Below are positions 1,285 through 9,368 of a stretch of DNA of 60,943 nucleotides, in pieces. The stretch is from Sulfurovum sp. (lineage in GTDB: Bacteria > Campylobacterota > Campylobacteria > Campylobacterales > Sulfurovaceae). Numbering within the stretch: the first letter of the stretch is position 1; every line of letters starts with the position of its first letter. Made by a program: the position numbers and the translations under genes. Where the stretch lies: positions 1 through 60,943 of the forward strand of contig JALSUP010000126.1 in NCBI GenBank assembly GCA_027071315.1. The letters are read 5' to 3'. Below the pieces are notes generated by a model. That model worked only from the letters and a program-made list of their open reading frames with translations. It had not been told where the DNA came from and did no database searches.

Positions 1285-2970
1285 TTATAATGCTTTTAAT
1301 TTCTTTTTTATATGATCGGCAACCCTGAAGGCATTGGCATAAATAGTCCAGGTATAGGGCACCGAACCTCCCGTTGGCATAAAACTTGCATCTGCCACAA
1401 AAAGATTGGCGACATCATGACTCTGACAATATTTGTTGAGCACAGACGTTTTAGGGTCGTTGCCAAAGCGGCAGCCTCCTGCCACAAGGTTCTGGGGAGG
1501 GGCAGAGGAGACCGACGAGTAGACATTTTGGGCACCCATCTCTTCAAGCACTTTTTCACACTTCTTGGCAATGTACTTACCCACCTTCAGATCCTGGGGG
1601 TGTCCCTCCAAGCGGAGTTTACCCACAGGCATACCGTACTTGTCTTTATGGTTTTTGTCCAAAGAGACAAAGCAGTTGTCGTTGGGCAGCCAGTCATTGA
1701 AGATCTCAAAACGGATCTTTTTACTTTTGGTAAAACGCTCTGTCAGTTTTTCACCAAGGACAGTTCCCCAAACCATCTTTCCATTCTCTTCATTGTTCTT
1801 TCGGGCACGTGAAATGATATTTTGATGCTCGAACATAAATTCAACTGACCCTCCTTTGAACTTTCCGTCCCACCAGTGGTCTATAAAATACCAGTCAAGT
1901 ATAGAACGGTTCACAAAGAGTCCTGTCTGCATCAGCTCTTCAAACTTGATCTCTTTGAGGCTGTCTTCATGTAACTCTCCCTCTCCGGAACCTCCTGCAG
2001 AGAAGACAAGATTCTTTCCCAGTTCTCCCGAACTGTTACCCAAACCGTTCGGGTGCAGGGCATTGGCAGAATTCAGCAGCAGTCGTGCACTCTCATGTGC
2101 CTGTGCCGCCACAACAAACATTTTTGCATAAATCTTCTCTTCTTTTCCGCTTATCGTGTCGACGACCACCGCATAGTCCACGGCATCCTTCCTGCTTGTA
2201 TGCAGAGACTTGACATAGGTATTGCTCTTAAGGGTTAAATTGCCTGTTGCCAGGGCAGGCATGAGCAAAGCTTCCCGTGAAGAGCCCTTTGCCCCGGAAC
2301 TGCAGCCATAGGATCCGCAGAAGTTGGAGTAGTAGCAGGCGTTTCTATGCCCTTTGTCTCGTGAGAGTACGGCTCTGGGTGTGACCAGAGGGGTAATATC
2401 CAGCTCTCTGCATGACTTGTCAAGTAACTTCACCACAGCATTTTCATTGGTGGGAGGCTGTGTAAAGTCTGCTGTACTGCGCGGCGGTTCTGCCGGATGT
2501 TTCTGGTACTTACCCGAAATACCCACCAACTCTTCAGCCTGAAGGTAATAGGGTTCCATCTCCTCATAAGAGATAGGCCAGTCAACCACATTGGCACCCT
2601 CTATGGCACCATATTTACTTTTGAGTCTAAAGTCATCGGGGTGCATACGATGCAGCATCCCTGACATAAAGTTTGATGAACCTCCGACAACATTACCGTT
2701 CCAAAAAGACCAGCCGGAGTCATAGGTAGGCGTACTTTCCCATTTGCCATCTACTCTTTCCTCAATGACGTGGTATTCGTCAAAAAGACTGGGGGTCACG
2801 ATGTCTCTTCGACAGTAGGCCAACTCGTCTTTCGAGAACTCTTCACGTTTCAGCAGTCTCCCTTTTTCCAGTACCGCGACTTTATAGCCTGCTTTTGCCA
2901 GAGTATAGGCCACAGCACCGCCGCTTGCACCCGAACCGACGATGACCACATCATATTTCACAGTTGTCAT
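1285..2970 (-). CDS. GMC-family FAD-dependent oxidoreductase, large subunit
   Basis: This 561-residue flavoprotein oxidises an alcohol or sugar substrate that cannot be named from sequence. It opens with the ADP-binding fold (VVIVGSGASGG, about residues 8-18), has a GMC-like stretch WNGNVVGGSSNFMSG near residue 90, and ends with a GMC C-terminal domain containing LFVADASFMPTGG. It overlaps the small-subunit gene by 4 bases (ATGA), showing translational coupling. The pairing with a gluconate 2-dehydrogenase subunit 3-like protein is typical of periplasmic membrane-linked dehydrogenases. No cytochrome c subunit gene is present here. Confidence 0.85.
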   Translation of the reverse strand: MTTVKYDVVIVGSGASGGAVAYTLAKAGYKVAVLEKGRLLKREEFSKDELAYCRRDIVTPSLFDEYHVIEERVDGKWESTPTYDSGWSFWNGNVVGGSSNFMSGMLHRMHPDDFRLKSKYGAIEGANVVDWPISYEEMEPYYLQAEELVGISGKYQKHPAEPPRSTADFTQPPTNENAVVKLLDKSCRELDITPLVTPRAVLSRDKGHRNACYYSNFCGSYGCSSGAKGSSREALLMPALATGNLTLKSNTYVKSLHTSRKDAVDYAVVVDTISGKEEKIYAKMFVVAAQAHESARLLLNSANALHPNGLGNSSGELGKNLVFSAGGSGEGELHEDSLKEIKFEELMQTGLFVNRSILDWYFIDHWWDGKFKGGSVEFMFEHQNIISRARKNNEENGKMVWGTVLGEKLTERFTKSKKIRFEIFNDWLPNDNCFVSLDKNHKDKYGMPVGKLRLEGHPQDLKVGKYIAKKCEKVLEEMGAQNVYSSVSSAPPQNLVAGGCRFGNDPKTSVLNKYCQSHDVANLFVADASFMPTGGSVPYTWTIYANAFRVADHIKKKLKAL

Positions 2971-3467
2971 AGTGCCACATACCTCACCGTTGGTTTAGGC
3001 TCACCACCATAGGCAGATAACGCTTTCCAGCCTGCCTCTTTTTGATTGCTGCCATAGACGGGAGCAGAAAAAAGCCCTTCCATCGTAAGTGTCATAATAC
3101 GCGAAAGCCAGTTACGTCCATAGTTCGTCTCTTCAAAGCCCCGTAAGGCTTTCTCTTTTTCTGCTGCTGTCATAGTATTAAACTTTCCTTTTTCACGGTC
3201 TATAAGCTCCTGGGCACCCTCTAAAACAAAAGCACGGATGTCTTTGTCATAACTTTTATGCTCAACTGTCTCAAAAAGAAAACGGATCGTATTCATCTCT
3301 CTGGCAGAGGGGATTTTACTCCCCTGAGGAAACATATGTTCCTGTACGGCAGCAATGGTACTTTTGACGTTTTCAAATTTTTTAGAAAAAGCACTTTGCG
3401 CTTTTGCTTCTATATAGGGAGAAGCTCCCAGAAGAGAGCCCAAAATTAAAAAGTGTCGTCGCTGCAT
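2967..3467 (-). CDS. Gluconate 2-dehydrogenase subunit 3-like small subunit, Tat-type signal
   Basis: This 166-residue protein is the likely partner that escorts the GMC flavoprotein across the membrane. Its N-terminus has a twin-arginine-like start (MQRRHFLILGSLLGA) and a hydrophobic segment, followed by a helical body typical of the subunit 3 family. The flavoprotein gene follows with a 4-base overlap. The Tat call rests on the RR pair and hydrophobic stretch; the full SRRxFLK consensus is only partly met. Confidence 0.75.
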   Translation of the reverse strand: MQRRHFLILGSLLGASPYIEAKAQSAFSKKFENVKSTIAAVQEHMFPQGSKIPSAREMNTIRFLFETVEHKSYDKDIRAFVLEGAQELIDREKGKFNTMTAAEKEKALRGFEETNYGRNWLSRIMTLTMEGLFSAPVYGSNQKEAGWKALSAYGGEPKPTVRYVAL

Positions 3468-3569
3468 GAAAGCCCCTTTATTTTCAGTATTCTAATTATA
3501 TTGTGTGTACTTTAAGTGCAGCTCATTTGTCTCAAAGCATGAAACATCAATAAAAATAATACACAGACA

Positions 3570-3589
3570 TTACACGGAAAAAAGTGTAA
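3570..3589. promoter_or_regulatory. Inverted repeat upstream of the GKC peptide gene
   Basis: TTACAC (3570-3575) and GTGTAA (3584-3589) form a perfect 6-base inverted repeat with an 8-base spacer, about 34 bases before the start codon at 3623. The position fits an operator or promoter element. No regulator can be named, and a chance repeat of this size is possible. Confidence 0.35.
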
Positions 3590-3622: not shown

Positions 3623-3811
3623 ATGAAAAAGTTAATTTTCGGTTCTCTGCTTGGTTTGGCACTTGTCGCCTTTACAGGATGTACAGATGCCAATGATGCA
3701 AAAGTAGCCAAGTGTCAGTCAGGTAAATGTGACGCAGCGAAAAAGATGGACAAGAGTCAATCTGCAAAATGCGGTGATGCCAAAAAAGCATCTAAGAAGT
3801 GTGGTAGTTAA
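3623..3811 (+). CDS. Small Cys-rich exported lipopeptide with GKC motif (HvfA/bufferin-like candidate)
   Basis: This 62-residue product has a signal peptide ending in a lipobox-like LVAFTGC (Cys20) and then a Lys/Ala/Cys-rich tail with KCQSGKC, AKCGDAKK and KKCGS. The start is preceded by AAAGGAAAAA. The GKC(G) repeats resemble precursors of the HvfA/bufferin class, copper-linked peptides whose cysteines are modified by MNIO (DUF692) enzymes. A second such peptide lies after the DoxX gene at 4412. No MNIO gene is in the window, so modification is inference. The lipobox Cys is unusual for that class, so a plain Cys-rich lipoprotein is also possible. Confidence 0.65.
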   Translation: MKKLIFGSLLGLALVAFTGCTDANDAKVAKCQSGKCDAAKKMDKSQSAKCGDAKKASKKCGS

Positions 3812-3827
3812 TACACACTCAGTACAC

Positions 3828-3861
3828 AGGTTTCATACTATACTTACAGCGTATCAAACCT
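3828..3861. other. Hairpin between the GKC peptide gene and the DoxX gene
   Basis: AGGTTTCATAC (3828-3838) pairs with GTATCAAACCT (3851-3861), 10 of 11 positions. No T-run follows, so it is not a standard terminator. It may set a different expression level for the peptide than for the downstream membrane protein. Confidence 0.4.
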
Positions 3862-3943
3862 AAAGCAGCATTGGACGATTTGAATAACCGACATTACTCA
3901 AATGATTCAATTCCCGATCAGATACATATAAAAGGAGGGCAAG

Positions 3944-4381
3944 ATGCTAAAAGCAATCTACCCATTTACCAAGAACATTCTAAGTAACGGTCAAAGCATT
4001 TCACTACTTTTGGCCAGATTCGCTGTGGCATACGGGTTTTATGACCCTGCCATGCAAAAGTGGTCAGATATAGGTGCTATCGCTACCTGGTTTGGCTCTA
4101 TGGGAATTCCTTTTCCAACACTCAATGCCTATATGGCAGCCAGTACAGAGCTTCTAGGGGTGATACTCCTCACATTAGGGCTTTTTACAAGGCTCATTTC
4201 GATACCATTGATGGTCGTCATGGTCGTAGCGATCACGACCGTTCACCTGGCTCACGGCTTTTCAGCCGGAGACAACGGCTTTGAAATACCTCTGTATTAT
4301 ATGCTGTTCTTAGCGATCTTTGCTTCATTTGGAGCCGGAAAATTCTCTTTAGACTATCTACTGTTCGGTGACGATCAGTAA
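3944..4381 (+). CDS. DoxX-family membrane protein (HvfX-like)
   Basis: This 145-residue integral membrane protein has about four hydrophobic segments and the DoxX pattern: LLLARFAVAYGFYDPAMQKW near the N-terminus and ASTELLGVILLTLGLFTRL in the middle. A strong ribosome site (AAAGGAGGG) precedes the ATG. It lies between two GKC-rich exported peptides. A DoxX protein (HvfX) commonly accompanies HvfA-type peptides in other bacteria, which supports reading the three genes as one unit. Biochemical role is unknown; membrane-linked redox support for peptide maturation or copper stress is inference. Confidence 0.8.
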   Translation: MLKAIYPFTKNILSNGQSISLLLARFAVAYGFYDPAMQKWSDIGAIATWFGSMGIPFPTLNAYMAASTELLGVILLTLGLFTRLISIPLMVVMVVAITTVHLAHGFSAGDNGFEIPLYYMLFLAIFASFGAGKFSLDYLLFGDDQ

Positions 4382-4411
4382 GTAGCTATGATCAAACAAA
4401 AGGAAAAAACT

Positions 4412-4666
4412 ATGAAAAAATTAATCAAATTAGGACTTATCGTACTTGGCGCTTCGGCACTTACATTCACAATGGCATCTGCAAACTGTGGTTCAGGAAA
4501 AGAAGCACCAAAAGCAATGAAGTGTCAGGCTGGTAAATGTGGTGCAGCTAAAAAAGCTGAAAAGTGCCAAAGTGGTAAATGCTCTGGAGACAAGAAAGAG
4601 ATGAAAAAAGATATGAAGAAAGACGCAAAAGGTAAATGTGGCCAAGGAAAATGTGGCGGTAAATAA
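4412..4666 (+). CDS. Exported GKC-repeat peptide (HvfA/bufferin-like candidate)
   Basis: This is 84 residues from the ATG at 4412. An ATG at 4388 is in frame, but AAAGGAAAAA sits correctly only for 4412. A signal peptide (about 1-25, ending ASA) is followed by a low-complexity Lys/Cys/Gly tail with four GKC units in KCQAGKCG, KCQSGKCS and GKCGQGKCGGK. Such CxxGKC repeats match the core of HvfA/bufferin precursors, where cysteines become thioamide/oxazolone copper ligands. It follows the DoxX gene by 30 bases and shares its repeat style with the peptide at 3623. No MNIO or DUF2063 partner gene is present. Confidence 0.7.
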   Translation: MKKLIKLGLIVLGASALTFTMASANCGSGKEAPKAMKCQAGKCGAAKKAEKCQSGKCSGDKKEMKKDMKKDAKGKCGQGKCGGK

Positions 4667-4778: not shown

Positions 4779-5243
4779 ATGAAAAAAATACTGATAGCAC
4801 TTACTGTCCTTCTTGCCCTGTCCGGATGTCAAGACAAGCAAGAGAATCAGGCAGCACATGATGCCAAAGTAGCCGCACAGGCAAAAGCAGAACTCCGTGC
4901 CGAGCTCAAAAAAGAGCAGGAAGCAGCGGTACAGGCACAAGACAATAAACTTGCCCACATCGGCATTACTACCACCAACGGAAAACTCATCATCGACACA
5001 AACAAGACCAAAAGCTACTTCCAGAAACTGGCAGAAAAGCTCAAAGTCCATGCAGACAAATTTGCCAAAGATATGGAAAATGGTGACATTAACAACTCTG
5101 AAGCCGGTGTGGTCGTCACCAAAACCGAAATCAACATAGACCTGAACAAAACCAAAAGCTTTTTAGACAACTGGGGCAAAACCATAGAACAATACACAAA
5201 AGAGTTCAAAAAAATGACAGAAGAGCTTAATACGAGTAAGTAA
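4779..5243 (+). CDS. Lipoprotein of unknown function with internal duplication
   Basis: This 154-residue protein has a type II signal peptide ending in the lipobox LALSGC (Cys17), then an Ala/Lys/Glu-rich helical stretch likely to form a coiled coil (about 25-60). Two related segments follow: LIIDTNKTKSYFQKLAEKLK and INIDLNKTKSFLDNWGKTIE, each a short strand, then NKTKS, then an amphipathic helix. The function is not recognised. It appears monocistronic. Confidence 0.7.
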   Translation: MKKILIALTVLLALSGCQDKQENQAAHDAKVAAQAKAELRAELKKEQEAAVQAQDNKLAHIGITTTNGKLIIDTNKTKSYFQKLAEKLKVHADKFAKDMENGDINNSEAGVVVTKTEINIDLNKTKSFLDNWGKTIEQYTKEFKKMTEELNTSK

Positions 5244-6434: not shown

Positions 6435-9368
6435 GTGGACAAAGCAGCAGAAATACTTTCACAAAAAAAGAAACTACTCACCGAAGTCTACTTCGACCTG
6501 CAGCGCCATTTTGAAGAGAAATATGGAAAAGACGCCCTTATTTTAATGGAGATCGGGACTTTTTTCGAAGTCTATGAAGTCAACAATGACGAACTTAAAG
6601 TCGGGAAAGCCAAAGAGATCGCCGAACTGCTGAACATCCAACTCACACGTAAAAGCAAAGCTGTCCTTGAAAATTCCGTTTCCAACCCCTTATTGGCAGG
6701 TGTTCCTGCTGTCTCTCTTGACCGTTACCTAGCCAGACTTATCGGCACTAAAAAATATACCATTATCGTGGTCAAGCAAAAAGGTGAGATGCCCAATGTG
6801 AAGCGTTACGTGGCGAACATCATCTCTCCGGGTACCAACTTTGAGTACCTCTCAGAACCCAACGAAAACAACATTGTCTCACTCATGGTCGATGAAAATG
6901 CCGGTATTTACTCTGTAGGGTACGCTGCCATCGATGTCTCTACAGGCAAGACCATCTGCAACGAGATCCACTCTACGCGTGATGACAAAACTTATGCACT
7001 TGATGAAGCCTTTAACCTACTGCAAACCTATACAACTTCGGAAGTCATAGTCACACTTGAAGGAAAAGAGATCAACAAAGAGTGGCTCATCCACTACCTG
7101 GAACTCTCCTCCGTGCACTACAGCATCAATACCAAACGCTTCAAGATCAACTTTCAGAATGCACTCTTTACACGCATCTTTGAGATAAACTCTTTTCTCT
7201 CTGCCATTGAATTTTTAGATCTGGAGCGTCATCCCTATACCACGGAAGCCTTGGCGGTACTCATCGACTTCATTATTGAGCATGATGAGAGCATTATAGA
7301 GAAGATGAACAAACCACAGTTTTTGGGTTCAAACCGCTACATGTACATTGGGAACAATGCCATGGAGCAACTCTCAGTCATCTCCCGAGATTCTTCCGAT
7401 ATTACGCTATTGGATCTTATTGACAAGACATCGACTGCTTTTGGAAAACGTTTGTTAAAAGAGCGTCTACTGAACCCCATTTGTGACAAAGCCCTGCTTG
7501 AAGAACGCTATGACCTGACGGAACGTCTCCTGCCTAACATTGCCCGTTTTGAGACACACTTGAAGCAGATCTACGACCTGGAGCGTATTGCCAGACGTAT
7601 CAAACTGCGTAAACTACACCCTGTGGAACTCACCTATATTGCCATGTCTCTGGAGTCGGTACTGAAGCTTTTGGAAGATGCCCAGGAGAATGGTCTTGAA
7701 CTTGATGCCAAACTCTTTGACGAGAGCAGAGAGATGCTCTCTGTTCTGGAAGAGACCTTTGAACTCAACATTTGCGCCCGTTTCCGTATAGAGCAGATCA
7801 ATGACAACATTTTCAAGAACGGTGTCTACCCGGCTATTGACACGATTGTCAGAAAGCAGGAGAAAGAGGTTGACAAAATGCATTCCGTGGCAGCCCATGT
7901 CGAATCTCTCTTCTCTTCAGACAAACTCTTCTCCTCGGCCACAGCCAAATACACCACGGTGAGTTACCTTGAAAGCGAAGGCTACTTCATCAACCTCACA
8001 AAGAACCGTTTTTCACTCATAGAGAAGAGCCTCAAAGACTCTTTTGTCACCATTGACGGAGAGCACCACTTCTTTAAAGACTTTCATTACAAATACCTCA
8101 AGAACGCAGTCAAGGTACAGGCACCGCTCTTTGAAGAGATCACACGCTCTTACGAAACAGCCCAGGTCAAACTGGTCTCACTTGTCAAACAACGGTACAC
8201 TGAGAGTCTCGATGTACTGGAAAACCGTTTCTCTCTCCTGCTTGACAAGCTCATTGCCTTCATAGCCAACATTGATGTCGCGATCTCCAATGCCAAATGT
8301 GCCAAAAGCATGAACCTGAGCAGACCCATCATTGAAGAGGGGAACTTCTATGAAGCCATCGCCCTGAGGCACCCCATCATTGAAGCCAATGATGAACGGG
8401 GTATCTATGTACCTAACGATGTCTACCTGGGAGAGAATAACCATACCAAACACAACCACATCACTCTCAACGCCTCTGACGGAGAAGACGTGCTTGGTGT
8501 GCTGCTGTACGGTATCAACTCTTCGGGAAAATCTTCTTTGATGAAGAGTATCGGTCTCTCTGTCGTCCTGGCGCAGGCAGGCTTTTTTGTCCCTGCCGTG
8601 GAGCTTCGTTTTGGGCTGTACGACAAACTCTTTACACGTATTGTCTCTCAAGACAATCTCTATAAAGGCTTGTCAACCTTTGCTGTGGAGATGATGGAGC
8701 TAAAAAATATTTTCAACAGAGCAGATGCACGCTCTTTGGTATTGGGAGACGAGATCTCACAGGGGACAGAGACAGAATCGGCCCTTGCCATCGTCTCCTC
8801 TGCTATTTTAAAGCTCATCTCCCTCAAGTCAACCTTCATCTTTGCCACGCACCTGCATCAACTGGGGAGCATTGCACAACTACAAAACATTAAACACTTG
8901 ATTTTTCTGCATCTGGACATTAAGTATGATGAATCTAACGATACACTTATTTATAACAGAGTGCTACAGTTAGGTCGGGGAGACAGTCTTTATGGCTTGG
9001 AGTTTGCAAAATCTTTACATATGGACAAAGATTTTCTGCAAATGGCACAGAATATACGTGAAAGCCTTAACGATTCCGGTTCTGAAATTAAAAAATTACG
9101 TAAACAAAAAAGCAGTAAATACAACAAAGAGCTCTTTTTGGCAAAATGTGCCCTCTGTGATGAAAATGTAGAAGATGTCCACCATATTGCTGAGCAGCAA
9201 GAAGCCAATACCGATGGGAATATTGACCATTTTCATAAAAACCATAAGTACAATCTCATTCCACTTTGTAAAAAACACCACAGTATGGTACATGAGGGGA
9301 AAATTAATATTTCAGGGTTTGTGATGACGTCTGAAGGACTAAAACTGCATTATGAAGTAAAACCGTAG
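6435..9368 (+). CDS. MutS7-type mismatch repair protein fused to an HNH endonuclease
   Basis: This 977-residue protein has a mismatch-binding N-terminal domain with the F-x-E motif (Phe43-Phe44-Glu45 in GTFFEVYE), connector/lever/clamp regions, the MutS ATPase (Walker [10 protein letters not shown] from residue 693; Walker B Asp772-Glu773; FATHLH) and a C-terminal HNH/zinc domain (905-977: Cys905-x2-Cys908, His916-His917, Asn940, Cys945-x3-His949). This is the architecture of the MutS7 subfamily known from Campylobacterota, giant viruses and octocoral mitochondria. A built-in nicking nuclease would replace MutL/MutH. The start is GTG, with AGGGG upstream. The TAG stop lies inside a REP sequence. 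Confidence 0.9.

Follow-up and report, generated by a model that had tools for sequence, protein, structure and literature searches.

A widespread GKC-peptide/DoxX cassette in Sulfurovum that lacks the modifying enzyme MNIO and is associated with copper through its promoter

Sulfurovum possesses a cassette of two exported GKC peptides and a DoxX membrane protein that is real, widespread and, through its promoter, associated with copper, and that does without MNIO, the dedicated iron enzyme by which GKC-type peptides are normally altered. We favour the reading of the cassette as a new variant, acting like a copper buffer and standing outside the MNIO-modified family. The window, i.e. the whole stretch of DNA analyzed (60,943 nucleotides), corresponds to contig C126 in a 99.8% complete Sulfurovum genome (G000) of 217 contigs. 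The original prediction had placed a pair of KCxxGKC peptides around a DoxX gene, with a lipobox on one precursor, and had seen only precursor-like genes and DoxX at the locus. The three genes and the lipobox were confirmed (the signal sequence of peptide A ends in FTGC), and neither MNIO nor its DUF2063 partner is present. However, peptide A contains only one full repeat, KCQSGKC, together with two more KC, and the unit extends to position 1285, because an adjacent, divergent Gluconate_2-dh3 (Glc3)/GMC pair is part of it as a conserved partner (Table 1). Peptide B has a type I signal peptide (judged by eye) and three KCxxGKC units (counted by codon pattern); its start was taken at 4412, with 4388 being an alternative upstream ATG.

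Table 1. Features of the cassette and their positions in the window
Feature	Position	Strand	Basis
GMC-fold FAD oxidoreductase subfamily	1285..2970	-	PF00732/PF05199; solved relatives; active-site columns; linkage
Gluconate_2-dh3-like (Glc3) small subunit, twin-arginine signal MQRRHFLIL	2967..3467	-	PF13618, 1.4e-9
Box TGTGTACTTTAAGTGCA, oriented to the Glc3/GMC genes	3504..3520	.	Conserved in divergent promoters; copper-cluster-only matrix score 10.9
Box TACACAGACATTACAC, oriented to peptide A	3560..3575	+	Exact match to TRCACANNNNNTRCAC
Peptide A (62 aa), a GKC peptide with lipobox, presumably anchored by lipid	3623..3811	+	Lipobox in 24/26 of the relatives' peptides at this place
Further exact box match TACACACTCAGTACAC, before DoxX	3812..3827	+	Genome pattern scan; conservation uneven at this position
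HvfX-family DoxX integral membrane protein, 145 aa	3944..4381	+	NF050144 ('HvfX family') 121.3 bits, cut-off 80; PF07681
Peptide B (84 aa), a soluble GKC peptide secreted through Sec	4412..4666	+	NF050188 23.6 bits, under cut-off 95

Two other genes of the window deserve mention. A conserved lipoprotein is encoded downstream of peptide B (4779-5243), with box-like sites upstream of it in 8/20 relatives, and a MutS-like protein of 977 aa (6435-9368) scores 378.9 against a MutS cut-off of 480 and carries, as judged by eye, an HNH-like C-terminal stretch, CALCDEN...HHSMVH.

A match to the HvfX-like DoxX was found in 60 of the 78 Sulfurovum genomes, usually as a pair of paralogues, of which one belongs to the cassette and the other adjoins a Glu_synthase-domain protein and has no GKC peptide nearby. 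The order peptide-DoxX-peptide is repeated in most of the Sulfurovum loci examined, and thus the arrangement is not due to chance. Around the cassette copy, a lipobox is present in 24 of the 26 peptides upstream of DoxX and in none of the 28 downstream; the division into an anchored and a soluble peptide therefore looks like a fixed design. The two upstream peptides without a lipobox possess an N-terminal hydrophobic segment, through which they may be anchored. Longer stretches were examined for 20 Sulfurovum regions, and in every one of them the divergent neighbours are GMC and Glc3. The second HvfX-family DoxX (L031:493-2611, on contig C157 of G000, and L032-L050) scores 94.8 bits, above the family cut-off; its operon includes Glu_synthase-domain and HSP20-like proteins, often lies by a metallo-beta-lactamase-fold gene, and in some genomes has a copper box in front.

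In a tree of HvfX proteins, MNIO-linked and MNIO-free members are interspersed, so MNIO has been gained or lost more than once among them. A single origin of the MNIO-free DoxX was rejected on the same ground, the labels being interspersed in a tree that, at 147 columns, is poorly resolved. Repeated gain or loss is what might be expected if the cassette were the remnant of a decaying hvf operon, stripped of its modifying genes. This explanation is largely refuted by DoxX open frames that are 75-95% identical across most of Sulfurovum, by the regulatory box, by the strict anchored/soluble division, and by the Lys-Cys pairs that have been kept, and we regard it as extremely improbable.

The enzyme itself was sought by profile search, as the original prediction had proposed, in the cassette's own genome and 77 congeners. 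Neither MNIO (PF05114) nor DUF2063 (PF09836; the PME-type 1 partner) was found in any of these 78 Sulfurovum genomes. Many of the 78 are incomplete, but 40 reach a completeness of 90% or more with contamination not exceeding 5%, and MNIO was likewise found in none of these. The absence of MNIO from Sulfurovum is real, because the same search recovers it above the cut-off in 25 of 397 genomes of the phylum (E values of 1e-81 to 1e-96); the DUF2063 profile recognises the phylum's own HvfC. The MNIO loci examined in the phylum are arranged canonically as peptide-MNIO-DUF2063, in many cases with DoxX next in line. A split locus, with MNIO encoded elsewhere in the genome, is thus ruled out as far as the search reaches, while Sulfurovum may have a modifying enzyme outside PF05114. 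In a survey of Buf_EGKCG precursors, 67 of 2583 precursor-bearing genomes were without MNIO, and its authors suggested that precursors with no MNIO gene nearby may be modified by a distant MNIO or not at all (PMC12452194).

The DoxX passes the cut-off of the HvfX family. Comparison of the peptides with HvfA profiles, also suggested at the outset, came out negative: peptides A and B score 8.9 and 12.5 bits, respectively, against NF050137 (HvfA/KCGExKCG; cut-off 19.5), and peptide B falls far below NF050188 (Table 1). The cut-off of NF050137 is passed by two MNIO-free peptides, one from a Sulfurimonas and one from a member of the Bacteroidota. The MNIO-free peptides at L122:7292-7573 and L306:4539-5213 lie above the cut-off of the NCBIfam domain 'oxazolone/thioamide-modified RiPP'; for these peptides the name is likely a misnaming in automatic annotation.

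The original prediction had left it between a modified variant and unmodified metal-binding peptides, and the residues around the cysteines favour the latter. Cysteine is followed by Gly at 98% in MNIO-linked peptides, at 89% in MNIO-free peptides of the Sulfurimonas type, and at only 38% in the Sulfurovum peptides, in which Lys precedes Cys at 95%. In FonBC, a studied MNIO pair, only Gly or Ala is tolerated after Cys (PMC13097082). The Gly (or Ala) that follows each modified Cys in MNIO systems is therefore not kept in Sulfurovum, and since a studied MNIO accepts nothing else, the peptides are more readily understood as unmodified. Counting against a universal relaxation is the retention of Cys-Gly, at 89%, in Sulfurimonas.

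The repeat is not restricted to the two peptides. A codon pattern for KCxxGKC occurs at 13 places in the genome, compared with none for the reversed pattern used as a control. The other genes found in this way all encode exported or membrane proteins, and several of these are copper proteins. One is a CusB-type adaptor, whose tag is predicted to lie at the N-terminus of the mature protein; another, a small lipoprotein, is encoded close to the efflux cluster of that adaptor. The copper cluster contributes a cytochrome c and a second copper island a small exported protein, and the tag is also carried by a NosL-like protein and by a membrane protein of the DsbD_2 type. All but the lipoprotein are covered by the tagged loci L226/L347 on contig C117, L353 on C14, L220 on C193, L335 on C109, and L221 on C8; some were assigned by Pfam through homologues of the G000 proteins (NosL in G001; the CusB-type adaptor and cytochrome c in G002). 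The presence of KCxxGKC on copper-handling proteins in MNIO-free genomes argues for direct copper binding, and it is likely that KCxxGKC is a copper motif in its own right.

A link to copper is also evident in the divergent promoter, where a conserved direct-repeat box, TRCACANNNNNTRCAC, faces both directions. The genome holds 18 sites of this box, compared with two for the reversed pattern. These sites adjoin a heavy-metal P-type ATPase (whose cluster also encodes CopB, a regulator of the OmpR type and the kinase that goes with it), two multicopper oxidases, and an HMA-domain protein; another lies at the outer-membrane efflux gene of a CusCBA-type cluster. A matrix trained on copper-cluster sites only, with the 95th percentile of random windows as threshold, exceeds that threshold upstream of Glc3 in 17 of 20 Sulfurovum cassettes, as opposed to 0/47 promoters of MutS, L35 and L20 and 1/17 of NlpC. 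The box is weak or absent in 3 of the 20 cassettes; it precedes some MNIO loci, unevenly, and some second-DoxX operons (G002 and G004). The copper linkage suggested originally is thus supported by a promoter box common to copper genes, and the divergent promoter is predicted to be a copper switch. A perfect palindrome, TTACAC-N8-GTGTAA (3570-3589), is not conserved in relatives, and the direct-repeat box was preferred to it. In a scan for sigma-70 promoters and terminators, sites were no more numerous than in shuffles.

The divergent partner is an atypical enzyme. Among solved chains, those of FAD-glucose dehydrogenase and of fructose dehydrogenase come closest to its GMC subunit (1e-39 to 1e-34). 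At the active site, the subfamily has Asn-Leu where these dehydrogenases carry the catalytic Asn-His (residues mutated in 8k6k and 8k6j), His being replaced by Leu in all subfamily rows aligned. A second catalytic site, His/Asn elsewhere, reads Pro, Ala or Thr followed by Tyr, one row having His. The subfamily retains the FAD motif and, at the Fe-S position, a cluster of three Cys. The His is still present in three homologues from Campylobacterota that are more distant (L349-L351; about 31% identical). With GMC domains and a Tat small subunit present, but the catalytic His lost and the second catalytic site changed, the subfamily probably does not act as a normal sugar dehydrogenase. A twin-arginine motif occurs in nearly all Glc3 homologues listed, and Glc3 is presumed to be the Tat carrier of the GMC subunit; no match to the small subunit was found among solved structures. 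A special Cys near the GMC active site (GGC) was considered and dropped, as more distant homologues share a Cys there.

The partnership extends beyond Sulfurovum. Among the 58 genomes of the phylum sample that have a strong HvfX match, a GMC orthologue is present in 41 of the 43 that are MNIO-free and in 4 of the 15 with MNIO (Fisher 4e-7), and it is adjacent to DoxX (within 2.6 kb) in 28/43 and 0/15, respectively (Fisher 6e-6); the genomes are related, the tests ignore kinship, and the counts are not independent events. The cassette is divergent in Sulfurovum and another family and co-directional in Sulfurimonas, where the order on one strand is peptide-DoxX-(Glu_synthase)-Glc3-GMC. GKC genes also adjoin Glc3-GMC without DoxX (L177, L309, L297 and L372), and in Saprospiraceae/Flavobacteriales Glc3-GMC follows a GKC protein whose repeats resemble EF hands (L304, L306 and L308), MNIO not being found in these Bacteroidota genomes, for which completeness is not given. 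At these three loci and at L312, again with MNIO not found, the exported protein immediately upstream of Glc3-GMC is of the GKC/EF-hand-like or the KCEGDHKCEGD-repeat kind. The slot is taken in family f8 by a Met/Cys-rich exported protein, MKCGSGMMPK... (L375:2428-3096), possibly another metal ligand. Nonetheless, the role of GMC may not concern the peptides, because GMC also occurs with no GKC gene nearby. If genomes are counted irrespective of HvfX, MNIO and GMC occur together at roughly the frequency expected by chance (five genomes). In the literature searched, we found no paper linking GMC proteins with GKC-repeat peptides.

Perhaps the genes have nothing in common but their regulation, the peptides, DoxX and GMC all responding to copper (or to a linked sulfur or oxidative stress) with no physical or chemical cooperation. 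The box stands at many genes, including the second DoxX operon noted above, and many genomes have GMC alone, some with a box-like site. A shared regulator, however, would not require the genes to be adjacent in several families and again in a second phylum, with differing orientations, and we consider this explanation unlikely. It is conceivable, as a tentative proposal, that the His-less GMC has replaced MNIO as redox partner of GKC peptides in two phyla, be it through a new cysteine chemistry or through thiol/copper redox control via HvfX. That Glc3/GMC took over from MNIO by oxidatively modifying the GKC cysteines of exported peptides in the periplasm seems distinctly unlikely. MNIO and GMC do behave as alternatives among HvfX genomes, even inside genera g36, g30 and g52; GKC-Glc3-GMC pairs exist without DoxX; the EF-hand-like GKC proteins paired with GMC in MNIO-free Bacteroidota are a precursor type known from MNIO clusters; and the GMC active site is atypical. 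On the other hand, GMC enzymes oxidise CH-OH groups, we know of no precedent for cysteine chemistry by them, and the usual catalytic base has been lost here. Moreover, GMC often stands alone, it occurs together with MNIO in the five genomes mentioned, and the residues after Cys in Sulfurovum have drifted, as expected without selection by any enzyme.

We therefore return to a copper-regulated periplasmic module free of MNIO, in which unmodified Cu(I)-thiolate peptides, one anchored and one soluble, act with a membrane redox partner; this is the reading we think probable, though far from certain. Copper stress would be sensed, probably by a CopRS-type two-component system beside the genome's copper cluster, whose regulator would presumably bind the box, and both arms of the divergent promoter would be turned on. 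In lipid-anchored peptide A and soluble peptide B, unmodified KCxxGKC thiolates would hold Cu(I), giving a copper buffer at the membrane and another in the periplasm. The inner-membrane HvfX-type DoxX and the Tat-exported Glc3/GMC would form a redox link with a presumed flow of electrons; it most plausibly keeps thiols reduced or sets the valence of copper, rather than oxidising sugar.

Oxazolin work describes HvfX as uncharacterised (PMC13419390). Since Sulfurovum retains GKC peptides and HvfX without MNIO, HvfX must do something other than serve MNIO chemistry. What that role is, and whether copper buffering needs the modification, become testable questions. In present naming, GKC-repeat peptides are modified RiPP metallophores and HvfX is their maturation protein; where MNIO is missing, a label such as 'oxazolone/thioamide-modified RiPP' or 'RiPP maturation protein' can be mistaken when it is assigned automatically.

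The closest known systems are the oxazolin (Hvf) operon of Haemophilus influenzae and the Buf_EGKCG MNIO clusters (captophorins), with which the cassette has in common a secreted KC-rich repeat peptide, an HvfX-family DoxX, and a link to copper. In contrast to these, the Sulfurovum genome has neither MNIO (HvfB) nor the DUF2063 partner (HvfC); there are two peptides, one with a lipobox, which remain under the HvfA family cut-offs and do not keep Gly after Cys, and the partner is a GMC/Gluconate_2-dh3 pair. The canonical HvfA-MNIO-DUF2063-DoxX loci of other Campylobacterota (L142-L161) have a homologous DoxX, similar peptides and, in some cases, the box, but they contain MNIO and DUF2063 and never have GMC within 20 kb. 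Like the FAD-dependent glucose, fructose and gluconate dehydrogenases (GMC with subunit 3), the Sulfurovum pair has a small subunit with a Tat signal and a Cys cluster at the Fe-S position; unlike them, it has Leu for His and a changed second catalytic position, has no cytochrome c gene in the cassette, and is linked to GKC peptides. CusF and metallothionein-like peptides buffer copper in the periplasm of bacteria. Their role is also the one predicted here, a small exported ligand for copper that belongs to a copper regulon, whereas the KCxxGKC thiol motif, the pairing of an anchored with a soluble peptide, and the DoxX and GMC partners set the Sulfurovum cassette apart.
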